This document shows positions 16,871 to 23,646 of a DNA stretch of 64,000 nt, piece by piece. A program made the translations under genes and the position numbers. The notes under the pieces are model-generated. The model searched no databases. It saw only the letters and a program-made list of their open reading frames with translations, and had not been told where the DNA came from. The stretch is from positions 1 through 64,000 of the forward strand of contig NZ_MBSO01000017.1 in NCBI RefSeq assembly GCF_001695835.1, written 5' to 3'. This DNA comes from Ensifer sp. LC11 (GTDB taxonomy: Bacteria; Pseudomonadota; Alphaproteobacteria; Rhizobiales; Rhizobiaceae). Position 1 is the first letter of the stretch, and the number at the start of each line of letters is the position of its first letter.

Positions 16871-17857
16871 ATGTTACGTTTCGGAATTCTGTCGACGGCC
16901 AGGATCGGCCGCGACCTCGTCGTGCCGGCCATCCAGGATGCCGAAAACGCCGTTGTATCGGCTGTCGCCAGCCGCGACTTCGCCAAGGCGCGGGCCATGG
17001 CTGACCGCTTCTCGGCGCCGCACGCATTCGGGTCCTACGAGGAGATGCTGGCGTCGGATGTCATCGATGCGGTCTATATCCCGCTGCCGACGGCGCAGCA
17101 TGTGGAATGGTCGGTCAAGGCCGCCAATGCCGGCAAGCACGTGCTCTGCGAAAAGCCGATCGCGCTGCGTGCCTCCGAGATCGATACGCTGATTGCGGCG
17201 CGTGACCGCAACGGCGTGCTGATCGCCGAAGCCTTCATGGTCACCTATAGCCCCGTCTGGCGCAAGGTGCGTTCGCTGATCGCCGAGGGTGCGATCGGCC
17301 GGCTGCGTCACGTGCAAGGCGCTTTCACCTACTACAACCGTGACCCTGGCAACATGCGCAACATCCCGGCGCTCGGCGGCGGCGGCCTGCCGGATATCGG
17401 CGTCTACCCGACGATCACCACCCGCTTTGTCACGGCCAAGGAACCGGTGCGCGTGCAGGCGAGCACCGACCGCGATCCGGAGTTCGGCACCGACATCTAT
17501 TCGAGCGTGCGGGCTGATTTCGGTGACTTCGAGCTGAGTTTTTACATCTCCACCCAACTCGCCGGCCGCCAGATCATGGTCTTCCACGGTGACAAGGGTT
17601 TCATCGAGGTGAAGTCGCCGTTCAATGCCGATCGCTACGGTCGCGAGGAAGTGGAGCTCACCAATCAGAACCACGCCCAGTCCCAGCTCTTCCGCTTCCA
17701 GGACGCGCGCCAGTACAAGCTACAGGCGGAGGCCTTCGCCCGAGCCGCCAAGGGCGAGCCGGAAGAGGTCGTGACGCTCGAAAACTCGCGGCTCAATCAG
17801 AAATTCATCGATGCCATCTATCGCGCCAGCGACAAGGACGGTTGGGAGACGATCTGA
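16871..17857 (+). CDS. Gfo/Idh/MocA-family oxidoreductase
   Basis: A 328-residue NAD(P)-dependent dehydrogenase. The Rossmann N-terminus reads [10 protein letters not shown], and the family signature Cys-Glu-Lys-Pro-Ile-Ala-Leu provides the conserved Lys. The C-terminal Gfo domain (about 130-320) has [11 protein letters not shown]. Such enzymes oxidise sugars or polyols; the substrate is not evident. CAGGGAGCTCC precedes the start. A strong hairpin follows the stop. Confidence 0.9.
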
Positions 17858-18335: not shown

Positions 18336-18394
18336 CGGTCGGATCCGTCCGTTTGTCGATGGCTGGAGATTGCCGGCTCGGCGTCATCAAACCA

Positions 18395-18411
18395 ATTACC
18401 TCCAAGGTAAT
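18395..18411. promoter_or_regulatory. operator-like dyad ATTACCT-N3-AGGTAAT
   Basis: Perfect 7-bp arms with a CCA spacer lie 60 bp upstream of the membrane-protein start and 50 bp upstream of the XRE start. The position suits control of both divergent genes. Confidence 0.45.
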
Positions 18412-18460
18412 GGATTTTGCCCGCGGCGCGGGCCACTCTCCGGAAAAACGGAGAATCGGC

Positions 18461-19240
18461 ATGCAATTCGGTAATCACCTGAAGGAATGGCGCGGGCATC
18501 GCCGCATGAGCCAGCTCGATCTGGCCGTGGCGGCGGGCATATCGGCGCGCCACCTGTCCTTCCTCGAAACCGGGCGCTCCAAACCCTCGGAAGGCATGAT
18601 CCTGCGGCTGGCTTCGGTGCTGGATATCCCGGCGCGCGACCAGGGCACGCTGTTTTCCGCAGCCGGCTATCGACCGCGCATGGCGACGCGGCCCGCCGCC
18701 GGGCTTGATGCCATGCCCCCGGCCGTCGCCAACGCCATCAGGCTCATCCTGGCCCGTCACGATCCCTATCCCGGCCTGGTGCTCGACCACGAATATACGC
18801 TGCTCGTCGTCAATCCGGCGCTGGCGAGCCTGGCGGCCGCAGCCGACGTGCCTTTCCAGCCGGGCGAGAATTTTCTCGATGCCTTCCTTGGCAACGACAA
18901 TGTTCAAAGGCTGGTCCTGAACTGGGAAGCGGCCGCAGCAGATCTCGTGCAGCGCGTGCGCACCGAGGCCTGGCTGCAGGGGCCGCGCAGCCGCCTCGGC
19001 AAGCGCCTGGAAAAAGCCGCGTCTAATCCCGCCGTGGAGCGCGCCATTGAAAACCACCCCGATACGGACCGGTTGCCGGTGCTGCCGATCGACCTCGATA
19101 TCGGCGGCTTGCGCTTAAGCTTCATCACCACGCTGCAGACCTTCGGCTCGACCCAGGATGCCCTGGTCGAGGGCGTTCTGATTGAATCCTTCTTCCCGGC
19201 GGACGAGGAGACCAAGGCGTTTTTCGAGCGGAAGGGATGA
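18461..19240 (+). CDS. XRE-family regulator with MmyB-like ligand domain
   Basis: A 259-residue protein. The N-terminal Cro/cI HTH (about 5-65) contains Met-Ser-Gln-Leu-Asp-Leu-Ala-Val-Ala-Ala-Gly-Ile-Ser-Ala-Arg-His-Leu-Ser-Phe-Leu-Glu-Thr-Gly-Arg. The rest matches the MmyB-like, PAS-related ligand-binding domain (Tyr-Pro-Gly-Leu-Val-Leu-Asp-His-Glu-Tyr). Start 18461 is preferred because GGAGA precedes it by 6 nt; the open frame upstream would run through the operator. Targets are probably itself and the divergent membrane protein. Confidence 0.88.
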   Translation: MQFGNHLKEWRGHRRMSQLDLAVAAGISARHLSFLETGRSKPSEGMILRLASVLDIPARDQGTLFSAAGYRPRMATRPAAGLDAMPPAVANAIRLILARHDPYPGLVLDHEYTLLVVNPALASLAAAADVPFQPGENFLDAFLGNDNVQRLVLNWEAAAADLVQRVRTEAWLQGPRSRLGKRLEKAASNPAVERAIENHPDTDRLPVLPIDLDIGGLRLSFITTLQTFGSTQDALVEGVLIESFFPADEETKAFFERKG

Positions 19241-19336: not shown

Positions 19337-19549
19337 CTACCGGCGGTCACGCTGCAGGCCGATGGCGATGGCGCCGCAAAGCGCCAGTGCGACGCCCATA
19401 TTGTAGGCGCCGATTGCTGCGGTTGCCTGGATCCAGTCTCCGCCGAGGCCTGCCAGTGCCAGCACCGCCATGCCGGCCAACAGGCAGGCGCGCGTCGATC
19501 TGAGGCCGCATGCGAGGATACCGAGAAGGAACGAGGCGATGACGATCAT
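19337..19549 (-). CDS. 70-residue membrane protein, possible
   Basis: Two hydrophobic segments (about 1-35 and 43-64) and an Arg-Asp-Arg-Arg end. It begins 23 bp after the SMR-type gene and would be the last gene of the glycosyltransferase operon. I know no family, and the ribosome site is weak, so it may not be a gene. Confidence 0.45.
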   Translation of the reverse strand: MIVIASFLLGILACGLRSTRACLLAGMAVLALAGLGGDWIQATAAIGAYNMGVALALCGAIAIGLQRDRR

Positions 19550-19572
19550 GGGGTGCTGATCCCGGCCATCCC

Positions 19573-19941
19573 TTAAGCGTTGATGATGATCATGCCGCTG
19601 ATGATCAGCGCGGCGCCGAAGGCGTAGCGCAGCGTCACCGCCTCGCCGAGGAAAACGGCGGCAAGCAGCGGCACGATGCAGAACGTCAGGGCCATGAAGG
19701 AATAGGCGATTGTCAGCGGCACCGACTTGATCGTGAAGATCCAGATGATGGTGCCGATGCCGTAGACGGCCAAGGCGGTATGCAAGGTCGGGCTGAGCGC
19801 AAGCGCCAACAGCCCTTGCGCATTGGCGTCACCGGTCTTGGCACTTGTCAGCTTGAAGAGGATCTGTCCGGCAGAGATCAGCACCGGTGTGAAGACCAGT
19901 CCGATCCAGACGGTGGGGGCGAGACTGAGATTCATCGCCAT
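19573..19941 (-). CDS. SMR/EamA-type small membrane transporter, putative lipid-linked sugar flippase
   Basis: A 122-residue protein with four membrane segments: about 9-28, 47-68, 74-96 and 102-121. The half-EamA layout (Ser-Ala-Gly-Gln-Ile-Leu-Phe-Lys; Thr-Ile-Ala-Tyr-Ser-Phe-Met-Ala-Leu) is that of SMR proteins, including ArnE/ArnF, which move undecaprenyl-phosphate aminoarabinose across the inner membrane. It starts 3 bp after the methyltransferase stop, in an operon with a polyprenyl-phosphate glycosyltransferase. The flippase role is therefore inferred from context. Confidence 0.78.
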   Translation of the reverse strand: MAMNLSLAPTVWIGLVFTPVLISAGQILFKLTSAKTGDANAQGLLALALSPTLHTALAVYGIGTIIWIFTIKSVPLTIAYSFMALTFCIVPLLAAVFLGEAVTLRYAFGAALIISGMIIINA

Positions 19942-19944
19942 GCC

Positions 19945-20649
19945 TTACGCCGCCGAAGCTTTGTCTTCGCGATAGTAGATATCGCGGCCGATATCGATGC
20001 ACTCATGCTCGGCTGGAACGGGGTGGACCGCCCTGAGGAAGGAGTGGGTATAGGGGAAGAAGTTGAAGTGCGGATTGAAGGTGTAGCGGTATTCGCGCTC
20101 GCGCGGCACCACGATGATCAGACGCCGGCGGGTGATCCGGCGCAGCTCGGCGATCGCCTTGCGGTAGTCGAGAATGTGCTCGATGACGTGGGTGCAGACG
20201 ACGGTATCGAATTCACCGTCCGCAAACGGCAGGTCTTCGATCATCGCCGCGCGGTATTCCACGCCTTCGATGGCAGCAGCGTCGTCGACGGCGAAGTCGA
20301 CGCCCGTCAGTCTCCCGACCCTGGGGTTGGCCGCGCGGATCCGCTTCAACAGGACGCCGGTGCCGCAGCCGACATCGCAGACGCTCTCGCCGGCGACGCT
20401 TGCCGCGATTTTGCGCACGCAGGCTTCGGAATTGTCCGTTCCCTCATGAACGCGCGGATGTTTCCGGTAGAGGTCTTCATATTCACCGGCTGACAGGAAG
20501 GGTGCCCGCGCGCGAAACTCGGCGAGATGCGCGATATGCTTGCCCCAGGCGAGGCTCGCCATGCCCTTGAAAAGGCGCGAGTCCCTTAAGATCGGTGGAA
20601 TGACGTCTTCGATGAGGAAGCGTATGCGGTTGGTCGTTTCCCGGTTCAT
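19945..20649 (-). CDS. class I SAM-dependent methyltransferase
   Basis: A 234-residue protein. Motif I is Val-Cys-Asp-Val-Gly-Cys-Gly-Thr-Gly-Val-Leu-Leu; the later Phe-Asp-Thr-Val-Val-Cys-Thr-His-Val-Ile-Glu-His matches Methyltransf_11 (PF08241). The start ATG at 20649 overlaps the glycosyltransferase stop (ATGA). The frame continues open upstream inside the glycosyltransferase gene, but that part is a shadow. It probably methylates the sugar or lipid intermediate made by its neighbours; this is inference. Confidence 0.85.
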   Translation of the reverse strand: MNRETTNRIRFLIEDVIPPILRDSRLFKGMASLAWGKHIAHLAEFRARAPFLSAGEYEDLYRKHPRVHEGTDNSEACVRKIAASVAGESVCDVGCGTGVLLKRIRAANPRVGRLTGVDFAVDDAAAIEGVEYRAAMIEDLPFADGEFDTVVCTHVIEHILDYRKAIAELRRITRRRLIIVVPREREYRYTFNPHFNFFPYTHSFLRAVHPVPAEHECIDIGRDIYYREDKASAA

Positions 20650-21653
20650 CCGCGGCGTTCCCCAACAATTCTTGCCATCGGCTGCGTCGCGGTTGCGCGG
20701 TCCTCGCTCTTGCCGATCTCCGAGGATGCGACCCGCGCGGGGGTCGCGATATAGTGCAGCCGAAGTTGTTCCGTGCGGGCGCGCGAGACCGAATCGAGGA
20801 TCAGGCCAGCCGTGAACATCATGATCGACACCAGAAGCAGGGCCAGCGAGAGGACCCAGGTCGGCATGCGGGGGACGAGCCCGGTCGCGAAGTATTCGAG
20901 CAGGACCGGCGTCATGAAGGCTGTGCTTGCGGCCAGAAACGCCAGGCTGATGAGGCCGAAGAAAGTGAATGGCCGCGTTTCCTTCATCAGCATCACGAAG
21001 GTCCAGAGGATCTTGGCGCCATCCTTGAAGGTTGACAGCTTGGAATGGGATCCCTCCGGGCGCCGACCGTAATCGAGTTCGAGTTCGGCCACCGGCAGTT
21101 TCAGCCGTGAAGCGTGCACCGACATCTCGGTCTCGATTTCGAACCCGTTGGAAACGGCCGGGAAACTCTTGGCAAAGCGACGCGAAAAAACGCGGTAGCC
21201 GGAGAAAATGTCGTTGAAATCGGTCCCGAATATCGACCGGTAGAGGATGTTGAAAATCCTGTTGCCGAAGGCGTGACCCTGCCGGCCGGCGTCGTTGTGA
21301 ACGCCGCGGCGCGTCCCGACAACCATGTCGGCGCGTTCGGTGATCAGCGTGCGCACGAGGTCTTCCGCATCGGTCGGGCAATAGGTGCTGTCGCCGTCGG
21401 CCATGACATAGATGTCGGCGTCGATGTCGGCGAGCATGCGGCGCACCACGTGCCCCTTGCCCTGCCTGCGTTCCCGCACGACGGTCGCACCGGCGAGCAT
21501 GGCTTTGAGAGCCGTGCCGTCCGTCGAGTTGTTGTCGTAGACGTAGATACGCGCGGTCGGCAGCGCCGCCTGGAAGCCCAGGACGACTTGTCCGATGGTC
21601 GATGCCTCGTTGTAGCAAGGCAGGAGAACGGCGATGTTGAAGCGGTCGAACAT
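20646..21653 (-). CDS. family 2 glycosyltransferase, polyprenyl-phosphate sugar synthase type
   Basis: A 335-residue protein. The GT-A domain (about 1-220) begins Ile-Ala-Val-Leu-Leu-Pro-Cys-Tyr-Asn-Glu, has Val-Tyr-Asp-Asn-Asn-Ser-Thr-Asp-Gly-Thr and the metal-binding Ala-Asp-Gly-Asp-Ser-Thr (DxD), and then Phe-Ser-Gly-Tyr-Arg-Val-Phe-Ser, typical of DPM1/ArnC-like enzymes. Two C-terminal membrane helices (about 232-255 and 268-292) anchor it. It would load a sugar on undecaprenyl phosphate at the inner face. It is first gene of a tight four-gene set and divergent from the GT-C protein. Confidence 0.88.
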   Translation of the reverse strand: MFDRFNIAVLLPCYNEASTIGQVVLGFQAALPTARIYVYDNNSTDGTALKAMLAGATVVRERRQGKGHVVRRMLADIDADIYVMADGDSTYCPTDAEDLVRTLITERADMVVGTRRGVHNDAGRQGHAFGNRIFNILYRSIFGTDFNDIFSGYRVFSRRFAKSFPAVSNGFEIETEMSVHASRLKLPVAELELDYGRRPEGSHSKLSTFKDGAKILWTFVMLMKETRPFTFFGLISLAFLAASTAFMTPVLLEYFATGLVPRMPTWVLSLALLLVSIMMFTAGLILDSVSRARTEQLRLHYIATPARVASSEIGKSEDRATATQPMARIVGERRG

Positions 21654-21825
21654 CCGGAAGGCTCGGTTCGAGTTGGGTTGCGGCCATCATAGGCGGCAGG
21701 GTGTTAACAAGACGCCAAGGGCCGGGGCGCCAGGCCGTTCGACGAGGGCGATCACGGGCTGCGGTTTTACGCTTTCTTGATCGCGAGCTCTTAGTATGTG
21801 GCCCCGGATCGAGAGGGCAGGACCT

Positions 21826-23646
21826 ATGTCGAGCGACACGGCGACACTATCGGAAATGGCGGCGACGCGAAGGACGGGGCGACTGTGGTCGAGCCTGCCG
21901 TGGATGGTGCTCCTCTACGGACTTCCGACCATCCTCCTGCTCGTCGTCCGGTTTCGCGGCGCGACCGACTATGTGGGGCGCGACAACGACGACGTCATGC
22001 GGTTGGTCGAGGTCCGCGATCTCCTGGCCGGCCAAAGCTGGTTCGACCTGACGCAAATCCGTCTGGGCCTCGAGGGCGGCACGCTGATGCACTGGTCGCG
22101 TCTGATCGACCTGCCGATCGCCGCGTTGATATCCCTCTTTCGGCCCTTTGCCGGCGCCGCGCAGGCCGAAGTCCTGGCGCTGGCGGTCTGGCCGATCTTC
22201 CTCGCCGTTCCGCTGCTGGCGGCAATGGGCCTTGCCGGGCGACGCGCCGGCGGCACCGCGGCCATGCATTTCTGCCTGGTCCTGACGGCTGTCTTCATCT
22301 CCACGTCGAACCGGTTTCTGGGAGGGGCGATCGATCACCACAACGTGCAGCTGGTCCTGGCCGCCGTGCTTACGGCGATGCTGGTCGACCGGCAGTTCCA
22401 CGCCTCAAGCTATGCCATTGCCGGCGCGGCCGCCGCGCTTGCAATCGCGGTCGGGGCGGAAACGACACCCTTCGTGGCCGTGGTCTGCGCCATTGTAGCC
22501 TGTCAATGGGTCATCGTCGGGCAAGCGGCGGCGCGCGCGACGGTCGCCTTCGGCCTTTCGCTCGCGTCGAGCCTCAGCGTCATCTTCTTTGCGACCGTTC
22601 CGCCGCGGCTCTATCTGGCCGTGACCTGCGACAATCTCTCGATCGCTTTTTATGCCTTGGCGCTGGCCGGTGGTCTCCTGCTGTCGCTCGCAGCCGCTCT
22701 GACAAGCGGTCGTTCGCGGGCGGTGCGGTTTGCGGCACTCGGCGGCTGCGGCCTCGGCGTCGTCGCCGTGGCACTTGCGGTCGCGCCGCAGTGCCTGGGC
22801 AATCCGCTGGCCAGTCTCGACCCATTGCTTGTCGAACTCTGGCTCGACCATGTCATCGAGGCCCGTTCCTTCCTTGCCTTGCTCGGACAGGAGCCGGCGA
22901 ACCTCGGCGCCTATTATTTCACCGGCGCCTTCGCCTCGGCCATCTGCATCTGGCGCATCTGGCGCCGCGACCGGGTCGGCCTCAGCCTCGTCCTCTTCGC
23001 TCTGGTGTTCTCGAGTCTCGCGATCGCGCTAGTCCAGGTTCGCGGCATGGCTTTCTCCAATCTGCTGGCCATCGTGCCGATTTCGCTGCTGCTTTCGGAT
23101 CTCCGGGTGTTGTCCGGCGGTGGAACCGCCCGTGCGGGGGCGTCCCTGCTTTACGTCGGCGCGCTCGTCATTTCCGTTCCGGCGGTTTGGGCCGTTGCCG
23201 GAGCGCTCGCCGAAACGGGGATCGGCGAACTTGCAGCGACAGAAACCGAGCTCACCAACGGCGAGGCGTGCCTGGCAAAAGGTGCGCTTGCCGATCTGCA
23301 AGGCCTGGCGCCGTCGCTCGTTGTCGGCCCGTCGGATGCGGGCGCGACACTCCTTCGCCGCACCCGACACCGCGTGCTCAGCGCGCCCTACCATCGAAAC
23401 GCGGGCGGCATGCTGGAGGAGTTGAAAATCGGCCTGGCGCAGCCAGAGGACGCAGCTGCCATGCTGCGCAGGCTTGGACATCCGATCCTCGCCTTCTGCG
23501 CCGCCGACGTTCAGACGCAACTGATCGTCGCCCGTGCCCCGCAAGGGCTCTATGCGGCGTTGGCTGCCGGGCGTGTCCCGGCCTTCCTGTCACCTTTGCC
23601 GGTTTCGCAAGGTTCGCCCATCCAGCTTTTTACCCTGAAACCCTGA
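21826..23646 (+). CDS. GT-C-type integral membrane glycosyltransferase with STT3-like motifs
   Basis: A 606-residue protein with a TM helix at about 25-42, some ten more helices to about residue 445, and a soluble C-terminal domain (about 460-606). The first periplasmic loop has Gly-Arg-Asp-Asn-Asp-Asp (51-56), the acidic motif of GT-C enzymes; Gly-Ala-Ile-Asp-His-His-Asn at about 157-163 sits where STT3/PglB proteins have their second acidic motif. No Trp-Trp-Asp motif of true oligosaccharyltransferases is visible. It would use a lipid-linked sugar as donor and transfer it in the periplasm. The start at 21826 (AGGAC upstream) is preferred over an upstream one at 21796. Confidence 0.75.
   Translation: MSSDTATLSEMAATRRTGRLWSSLPWMVLLYGLPTILLLVVRFRGATDYVGRDNDDVMRLVEVRDLLAGQSWFDLTQIRLGLEGGTLMHWSRLIDLPIAALISLFRPFAGAAQAEVLALAVWPIFLAVPLLAAMGLAGRRAGGTAAMHFCLVLTAVFISTSNRFLGGAIDHHNVQLVLAAVLTAMLVDRQFHASSYAIAGAAAALAIAVGAETTPFVAVVCAIVACQWVIVGQAAARATVAFGLSLASSLSVIFFATVPPRLYLAVTCDNLSIAFYALALAGGLLLSLAAALTSGRSRAVRFAALGGCGLGVVAVALAVAPQCLGNPLASLDPLLVELWLDHVIEARSFLALLGQEPANLGAYYFTGAFASAICIWRIWRRDRVGLSLVLFALVFSSLAIALVQVRGMAFSNLLAIVPISLLLSDLRVLSGGGTARAGASLLYVGALVISVPAVWAVAGALAETGIGELAATETELTNGEACLAKGALADLQGLAPSLVVGPSDAGATLLRRTRHRVLSAPYHRNAGGMLEELKIGLAQPEDAAAMLRRLGHPILAFCAADVQTQLIVARAPQGLYAALAAGRVPAFLSPLPVSQGSPIQLFTLKP

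Follow-up and report, generated by a model that had tools for sequence, protein, structure and literature searches.

In rhizobia, RgtA-E galacturonosylate lipopolysaccharide (LPS), a polyprenyl-phosphate sugar made by a GT2 enzyme being used by GT-C enzymes; RgtA-D are ArnT/PMT-type GT-C enzymes encoded in the same bacterial family at loci other than the one described here. In three-component systems polyprenyl phosphate is charged with a sugar, the product is flipped and a GT-C enzyme carries out the transfer, and SMR-type flippases have been described within such systems (PMC11127046). The locus considered here lies in a stretch of 64,000 nucleotides (contig NZ_MBSO01000017.1, hereafter the window) from the 6.2 Mb genome of Ensifer sp. 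LC11, and encodes a GT2, a methyltransferase, a small SMR protein and a 70-residue membrane protein (p70), together with a divergent GT-C protein. We think it fairly probable that this locus specifies a three-component extracytoplasmic glycosylation system with an STT3/AglB-type transferase and an added methylation step. A literature search, with subscription papers largely outside its reach, found nothing on this locus in rhizobia, and an earlier description is possible.

In the proposed pathway, GT2, working at the cytoplasmic face, would charge polyprenyl monophosphate with one sugar taken from a nucleotide sugar, the methyltransferase would methylate that sugar either once it is lipid-bound or immediately beforehand, the ArnE-like SMR protein would flip the lipid-linked sugar across the inner membrane, and the GT-C protein would transfer it in the periplasm to an envelope acceptor. 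In the GT-C protein, D65, D180, H182 and E355 would engage the metal and the acceptor, while R416 would engage the lipid phosphate. The fold, the conservation of catalytic positions, the gene linkage, the exchangeability of GtrA and SMR and the restriction of the methyltransferase to this locus were determined computationally; we infer every reaction, as well as the donor type, sugar and acceptor.

Gtr-type O-antigen modification likewise combines a polyprenyl-phosphate-sugar synthase, a small flippase and a GT-C enzyme (PMC11127046), but here the GT-C protein is of predicted STT3/AglB type, SMR replaces GtrA and there is an extra methyltransferase. The ArnC-ArnE/F-ArnT pathway for lipid A aminoarabinose (Ara4N) shares with the locus a GT2, an ArnE-like SMR protein and a GT-C enzyme of related fold; however, the window GT-C protein has no Pfam PMT match, fits STT3/AglB clearly better and is not classed as ArnT, and no Ara4N biosynthesis genes were seen adjoining the window locus. 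Archaeal AglJ and AglB of the Haloferax type are alike in that GT2 is closest to AglJ and that the GT-C protein has a predicted STT3/AglB fold, D-x-H in the second external loop (EL2) and an AglB-like C-terminal domain, but the AglJ score is under the cut-off, the WWD motif is missing, further sugar-adding enzymes are absent here, and the window locus instead has a small flippase of the GtrA/SMR class and a methyltransferase in the operon. The DPY19 C-mannosyltransferases combine an STT3-like fold with a monophosphate-linked single-sugar donor (as in structure 7zli of CeDPY19 with Dol25-P-Man), but are eukaryotic and score lower in structure than STT3/AglB.

Predicted fold and catalytic positions of the GT-C protein

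The window GT-C protein has no match in Pfam, in NCBIfam or, by sequence, in the PDB; its 55 orthologues belong to no Pfam family, and searching the PDB with either the window protein or a profile of these orthologues returned nothing relevant. An AlphaFold2 model made with the 55 orthologues (predicted local distance difference test 91.5, predicted template modelling score 0.91) gave 22 Foldseek matches with E < 0.001, all to STT3, AglB, PglB or DPY19 entries or to complexes containing STT3. A second structural aligner gave Z 26.4 to yeast Stt3 (3.7 A over 511 residues), compared to 25.8 for AglB, 21.5 for DPY19, 19.8 for PglB, 18.9 for ArnT and 15.6 for AftD; as far as the model goes, STT3 and AglB differ by no more than noise and both are clear of ArnT. 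The last domain (residues 488-615) matched the isolated AglB-S2 C-terminal domain with Z 11.9. The modelled protein thus has the STT3-type GT-C fold with C-terminal globular domain that defines STT3/AglB/PglB (PF02516, GT66), and its top matches are exclusively GT-C enzymes, as predicted for the transferase of a three-component system. An earlier note on this DNA had proposed an STT3-like fold, to be checked by structure prediction, and the model bears this out by matching STT3/AglB best, above ArnT.

The same kinship is suggested by sequence profiles. Searched against the PDB, a profile of 41 family members (A3) picked out two AglB C-terminal domains from Archaeoglobus fulgidus (E 8.2e-7 and 2.9e-5) and gave a weak match (0.13) to full-length STT3A in which the residues of EL2 and EL6 line up, and a profile-profile comparison of the family with PglB-type proteins (eight, fetched from the phylum) gave E 2.5e-5 across EL1-EL2. 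One family member (L134) matches Pfam STT3 with E 9e-4, its EL2 reading DHDD. The best of the 41 distant members scored 19.2 bits against the curated Pfam STT3 cut-off of 24.5, and neither the window protein nor its 55 orthologues gave a match. Most likely the GT-C protein is a bacterial relative, hitherto unrecognised, of the enzyme with which protein N-glycosylation begins in archaea and eukaryotes; judged from sequence and model, it descends from the STT3/AglB line, having kept most catalytic residues and lost the sequon reader.

In oligosaccharyltransferases (OSTs) the EL5 Glu contacts the acceptor Asn, while the WWD motif reads the Ser or Thr at position +2 of the sequon. Both acidic motifs named in the earlier note, D63-N-D65-D66 and D180-H181-H182-N183, are present. 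D65, D66, D180, H181, H182 and N183 are invariant among the 55 orthologues, and D65, D180, H181 and H182 are conserved at 96-100% in a 56-member set reaching down to about 20% identity; from these sequences, conservation of the Asp-Asp and Asp-His-His-Asn motifs is therefore not due to chance. With residue roles taken from studies of STT3-type enzymes (PMC7226087, PMC6801728), D65 pairs with the catalytic EL1 Asp of PglB-type proteins and is invariant in the 41-member set, and D180 and H182 pair with the two Asp of the PglB-type DTD in EL2. D180-x-H182 also aligns with DNE of human STT3A (D-x-E), and the second EL2 position is His in archaeal AglB (PMC6801728). R416, again invariant among the 41, is aligned to the phosphate-binding EL6 Arg of STT3A. 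E355 is invariant in the 55 orthologues, at 86% in the wide set, and sits in the loop before helix 367-389; the surrounding consensus, vsEaqp, resembles SVSEHQP, HMMER giving no column-for-column alignment of the two, and by position and motif E355 appears to fit the EL5 Glu, of which DPY19 has no clear counterpart (PMC6801728).

The description "STT3-like" in the earlier note is therefore accurate for the fold and most catalytic positions and fails for sequon recognition, WWD being missing. We considered filing the protein as an OST and rejected this because WWD is absent and the Pfam STT3 cut-off is not reached. A family-specific YHR motif (532-534) follows the lost WWD position, and two cysteines invariant among the 41 members, C492 and C568 in the C-terminal domain, may form a disulfide.

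Pairing with GT2, exchange of GtrA and SMR, and the methyltransferase

GT2 matches Glycos_transf_2 in Pfam (E 9e-14), and its best NCBIfam match is archaeal AglJ (TIGR04182, E 6.6e-63, residues 7-298), at 212.8 bits compared to a cut-off of 325 and hence below equivalog level. These full-length Glycos_transf_2 and AglJ-type matches would fit the synthase of a three-component system. The window genome contains one copy of the GT-C protein and, at a threshold of E 1e-10, one of this type of GT2; no member of the classical STT3 family was found in that genome, and therefore no classical OST for GT2 to serve. Among 199 Rhizobiaceae genomes the GT-C protein is present in 99 and GT2 in 91, with both in 86 (Fisher p 2e-35), and in 85 of these they are adjacent. 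Within the class, 48 of 385 sampled genomes carry the GT-C family; a sample across the phylum gave 44 of 299, a few of them from outside the class, and in three of those outsiders (L148-L150) the same GT2 type directly adjoins it. In Rhizobiaceae the two genes lie on opposite strands, at four loci (L098, L148, L149 and L150) they are co-directional and other arrangements occur elsewhere, so the linkage survives rearrangement. Across 80 loci of named organisms the pair is nearly constant and the gene behind GT2 varies.

The neighbourhood conservation that had been set beforehand as a check thus holds for GT2 and GT-C far beyond the genus. Of the gene set originally proposed, a core of GT2, GT-C and a flippase-type protein is conserved, while the methyltransferase is optional and p70 is confined to a few close relatives. 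At several distant loci GtrA is next to a GT-C gene in the absence of GT2, or GT-C genes form tandem pairs; the neighbours of solitary distant GT-C paralogues are mostly housekeeping genes and give no hint of an acceptor. At L096:3806-9404 a tandem pair of the family lies behind GtrA and an FAD amine-oxidase-like gene; this may be a related system that also oxidises the sugar. On a Sphingomonas plasmid (NZ_CP155751.1, 198823-200451) a homologue of the GT-C protein is labelled "AcrB/AcrD/AcrF family protein", probably a misannotation.

The best NCBIfam matches of the SMR protein are ArnE (E 1.1e-13) and ArnF (E 6e-10), both under the cut-off, as is its Pfam match to EamA (E 6e-4); its GQ-x-LFK motif is retained in distant loci. 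At 93 loci with the GT2/GT-C pair we found GtrA only (65), SMR plus methyltransferase (15), all three (8), SMR only (3) or none of these (2). A GtrA and/or SMR gene, the candidate small flippase of a three-component system on sequence grounds, therefore adjoins the pair at 91 of 93 loci. The GtrA type is found in Rhizobium (including R. johnstonii 3841, L018), Agrobacterium, Neorhizobium and others, the methyltransferase plus SMR type in Ensifer/Sinorhizobium and a few others. A quick GT-C tree implies about 10 changes of SMR presence and 8 of methyltransferase presence, rough counts given the long branches of the tree. Three distant loci (L098, L111, L112) have GT-C, GT2 and SMR without the methyltransferase. 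At five Rhizobium loci and L025 an SMR gene stands beside a GtrA without its NRxFTF motif, and at L072 and L074 GtrA keeps this motif despite the presence of SMR and methyltransferase. This interchange of GtrA and SMR at a single site is the best evidence on flipping, and makes the SMR protein the probable flippase for the lipid-linked sugar. Two further GtrA genes are located in genome G000 (L122 on C6, near 85129; L123 on C1, near 174100), one of which overlaps a different GT2 (104 bits), and this genome may contain at least one separate three-component system.

The methyltransferase matches Methyltransf_11 (Pfam, E 4.6e-16) and is of class I without a specific subfamily. It occurs in 12 of the 199 Rhizobiaceae genomes, in all 12 within 3 kb of the GT2/GT-C pair, and each of the 23 loci with the methyltransferase also carries the SMR gene. 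That the two travel together suggests that the enzyme methylates the sugar and that SMR has a preference for the methylated lipid; the methyltransferase probably acts on a lipid-linked or nucleotide sugar. In one Hoeflea genome (L072:5655-6715) methyltransferase and SMR genes run in the opposite direction close to an intact GtrA, as though they had been inserted together.

Gene layout and neighbouring genes

All five open reading frames described in the earlier note were found, with four tightly packed minus-strand genes divergent from the GT-C gene (Table 1). The GT2 stop and methyltransferase start overlap by 4 bases, and gaps of 3 bases (methyltransferase to SMR) and 23 bases (SMR to p70) follow, so that the minus-strand genes look like an operon. 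The GT2 and GT-C starts are separated by 142 bases, an alternative GT-C start being possible at 21826, and xseA follows GT-C.

Table 1. Genes of the locus and acidic sites of the GT-C protein (window coordinates)
Feature	Position	Strand	Family or basis
p70, 70-aa membrane protein	19337..19549	-	no family
SMR/EamA-type protein, 122 aa, probable polyprenyl-phosphate-sugar flippase	19573..19941	-	ArnE/ArnF closest (NCBIfam)
Class I S-adenosylmethionine (SAM) methyltransferase, 234 aa	19945..20649	-	Methyltransf_11
GT2, 335 aa, probable polyprenyl-monophosphate sugar synthase (AglJ/GtrB/DPM1 type)	20646..21653	-	Glycos_transf_2
GT-C protein of STT3/AglB type, 616 aa	21796..23646	+	predicted fold; predicted transferase
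Codons N64-D65-D66, EL1 acidic site	21985..21993	+	
Codons D180-H181-H182-N183, EL2 D-x-H site	22333..22344	+	

The GT-C protein is 74-78% identical to its counterparts in Ensifer adhaerens L18, E. sesbaniae and Ensifer sp. Root278. In comparison with six relatives the ratio of non-synonymous to synonymous substitution rates (dN/dS) is 0.08-0.19 for GT2, methyltransferase, SMR and GT-C and 0.25-0.36 for p70, the most relaxed of the five; because of these low ratios all five look like real genes. The predicted RNA fold between the divergent genes was no better than those of shuffled sequences, and a promoter and terminator scan detected nothing exceeding chance. A plasmid or phage origin was rejected, as there was no phage match and there were only four plasmid records.

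p70 has no Pfam match and only a chance-level NCBIfam match, its orthologues occupy the equivalent place only in L002-L006 and L059, and it is an accessory at most. In three Rhizobium loci membrane proteins of about 80-100 aa are encoded on the minus strand between GT-C and xseA (L014:9845-10087, L018:9824-10123, L021:9771-10043), the one in L021 giving a weak match to the p70 profile (25 bits). Convergent to p70 is an XRE-type regulator with an MmyB-like ligand-binding domain (18353-19240), found at this place only in relatives of the window and L079. A Gfo/Idh-like oxidoreductase gene (16871-17857) is kept beside the GT2 and flippase genes in most of the 80 loci, which may reflect only old gene order.

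Acceptor and alternative readings

Several observations weigh against the proposed system. The narrow orthologue profile detected neither STT3 in the PDB nor, by hhalign, any meaningful similarity to PglB-type proteins, the match to STT3/PglB being obtained only with the wide family profile. The WWD(YG) motif is absent, its position aligning to PSDAG with both Trp missing. Many distant GT-C paralogues have no adjoining GT2 and the pairing is therefore not universal, and at L035 and L046 GtrA has lost NRxFTF without any SMR gene, so the picture of SMR taking over from GtrA is not a simple one.

The acceptor may be a glycan or lipid about as readily as a protein, the balance being close to even. 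In the former case, to which we give just under an even chance, LPS core, lipid A, O-antigen or exopolysaccharide (EPS) would be modified by a functional equivalent of Gtr, Arn or Rgt whose STT3 shape is due to descent; this is a narrower version of the proposed system and is not exclusive of it. O-antigen modification classically follows such a three-component plan with a monosaccharide donor (PMC11127046), and loss of WWD is also consistent with such an acceptor. The patchy distribution among Rhizobiaceae looks like surface variation, as does the faster change of GT-C compared to GT2 (dN/dS about 0.17 versus 0.09). However, the EL5 Glu appears to be kept, the C-terminal domain is AglB-like, and no LPS or EPS gene was seen adjoining the GT2/GT-C pair. 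As a more tentative and rather unlikely possibility, the locus would be a minimal alphaproteobacterial protein glycosylation pathway, in which an AglJ-like GT2, a flippase and a WWD-less AglB-like transferase modify envelope proteins, at a non-classical site, with one sugar (here methylated) donated from polyprenyl monophosphate.

It is improbable that the GT-C protein is a true OST for a diphosphate-linked oligosaccharide made elsewhere, with GT2 serving another step: its best structural matches are indeed OSTs using such donors, and R416 corresponds to their pyrophosphate-binding Arg, but its constant partners are a single GT2 and a small GtrA/SMR flippase rather than an oligosaccharide assembly cluster, and DPY19 shows that an STT3-like fold can use a monophosphate-linked single sugar. 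We consider it slightly less probable still that SMR is a drug efflux protein and the methyltransferase a small-molecule enzyme, both merely lying in the operon. Weak SMR matches to Qac/EmrE-type models and similar methyltransferase scores to many unrelated methyltransferases would allow this, but SMR replaces GtrA at the same place several times and accompanies GT-C and GT2 even where the methyltransferase is lacking, and in Rhizobiaceae the methyltransferase is confined to this locus. That the divergent GT-C gene is a mere neighbour outside the pathway is very improbable, since despite its position on the other strand in Rhizobiaceae and the solitary state of some paralogues it adjoins GT2 in 85 of 86 genomes having both, is co-directional with it at L098 and L148-L150, and keeps this linkage through rearrangement.

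If the minimal protein pathway were correct, the GT-C proteins would constitute an STT3-related family of bacterial protein glycosyltransferases unrecognised by Pfam or NCBIfam. For the three-component system that we favour, a widespread GT-C family lacking a Pfam model gains, through its STT3/AglB kinship and its link to a sugar-lipid synthase and flippase, a testable function for many unannotated genes. The natural swaps of GtrA and SMR offer a way to test directly for flippase function, of which demonstrations are rare, and the family bears on the spread of the STT3 fold between monosaccharide and oligosaccharide transfer, in bacteria for which surface sugars matter in plant symbiosis.

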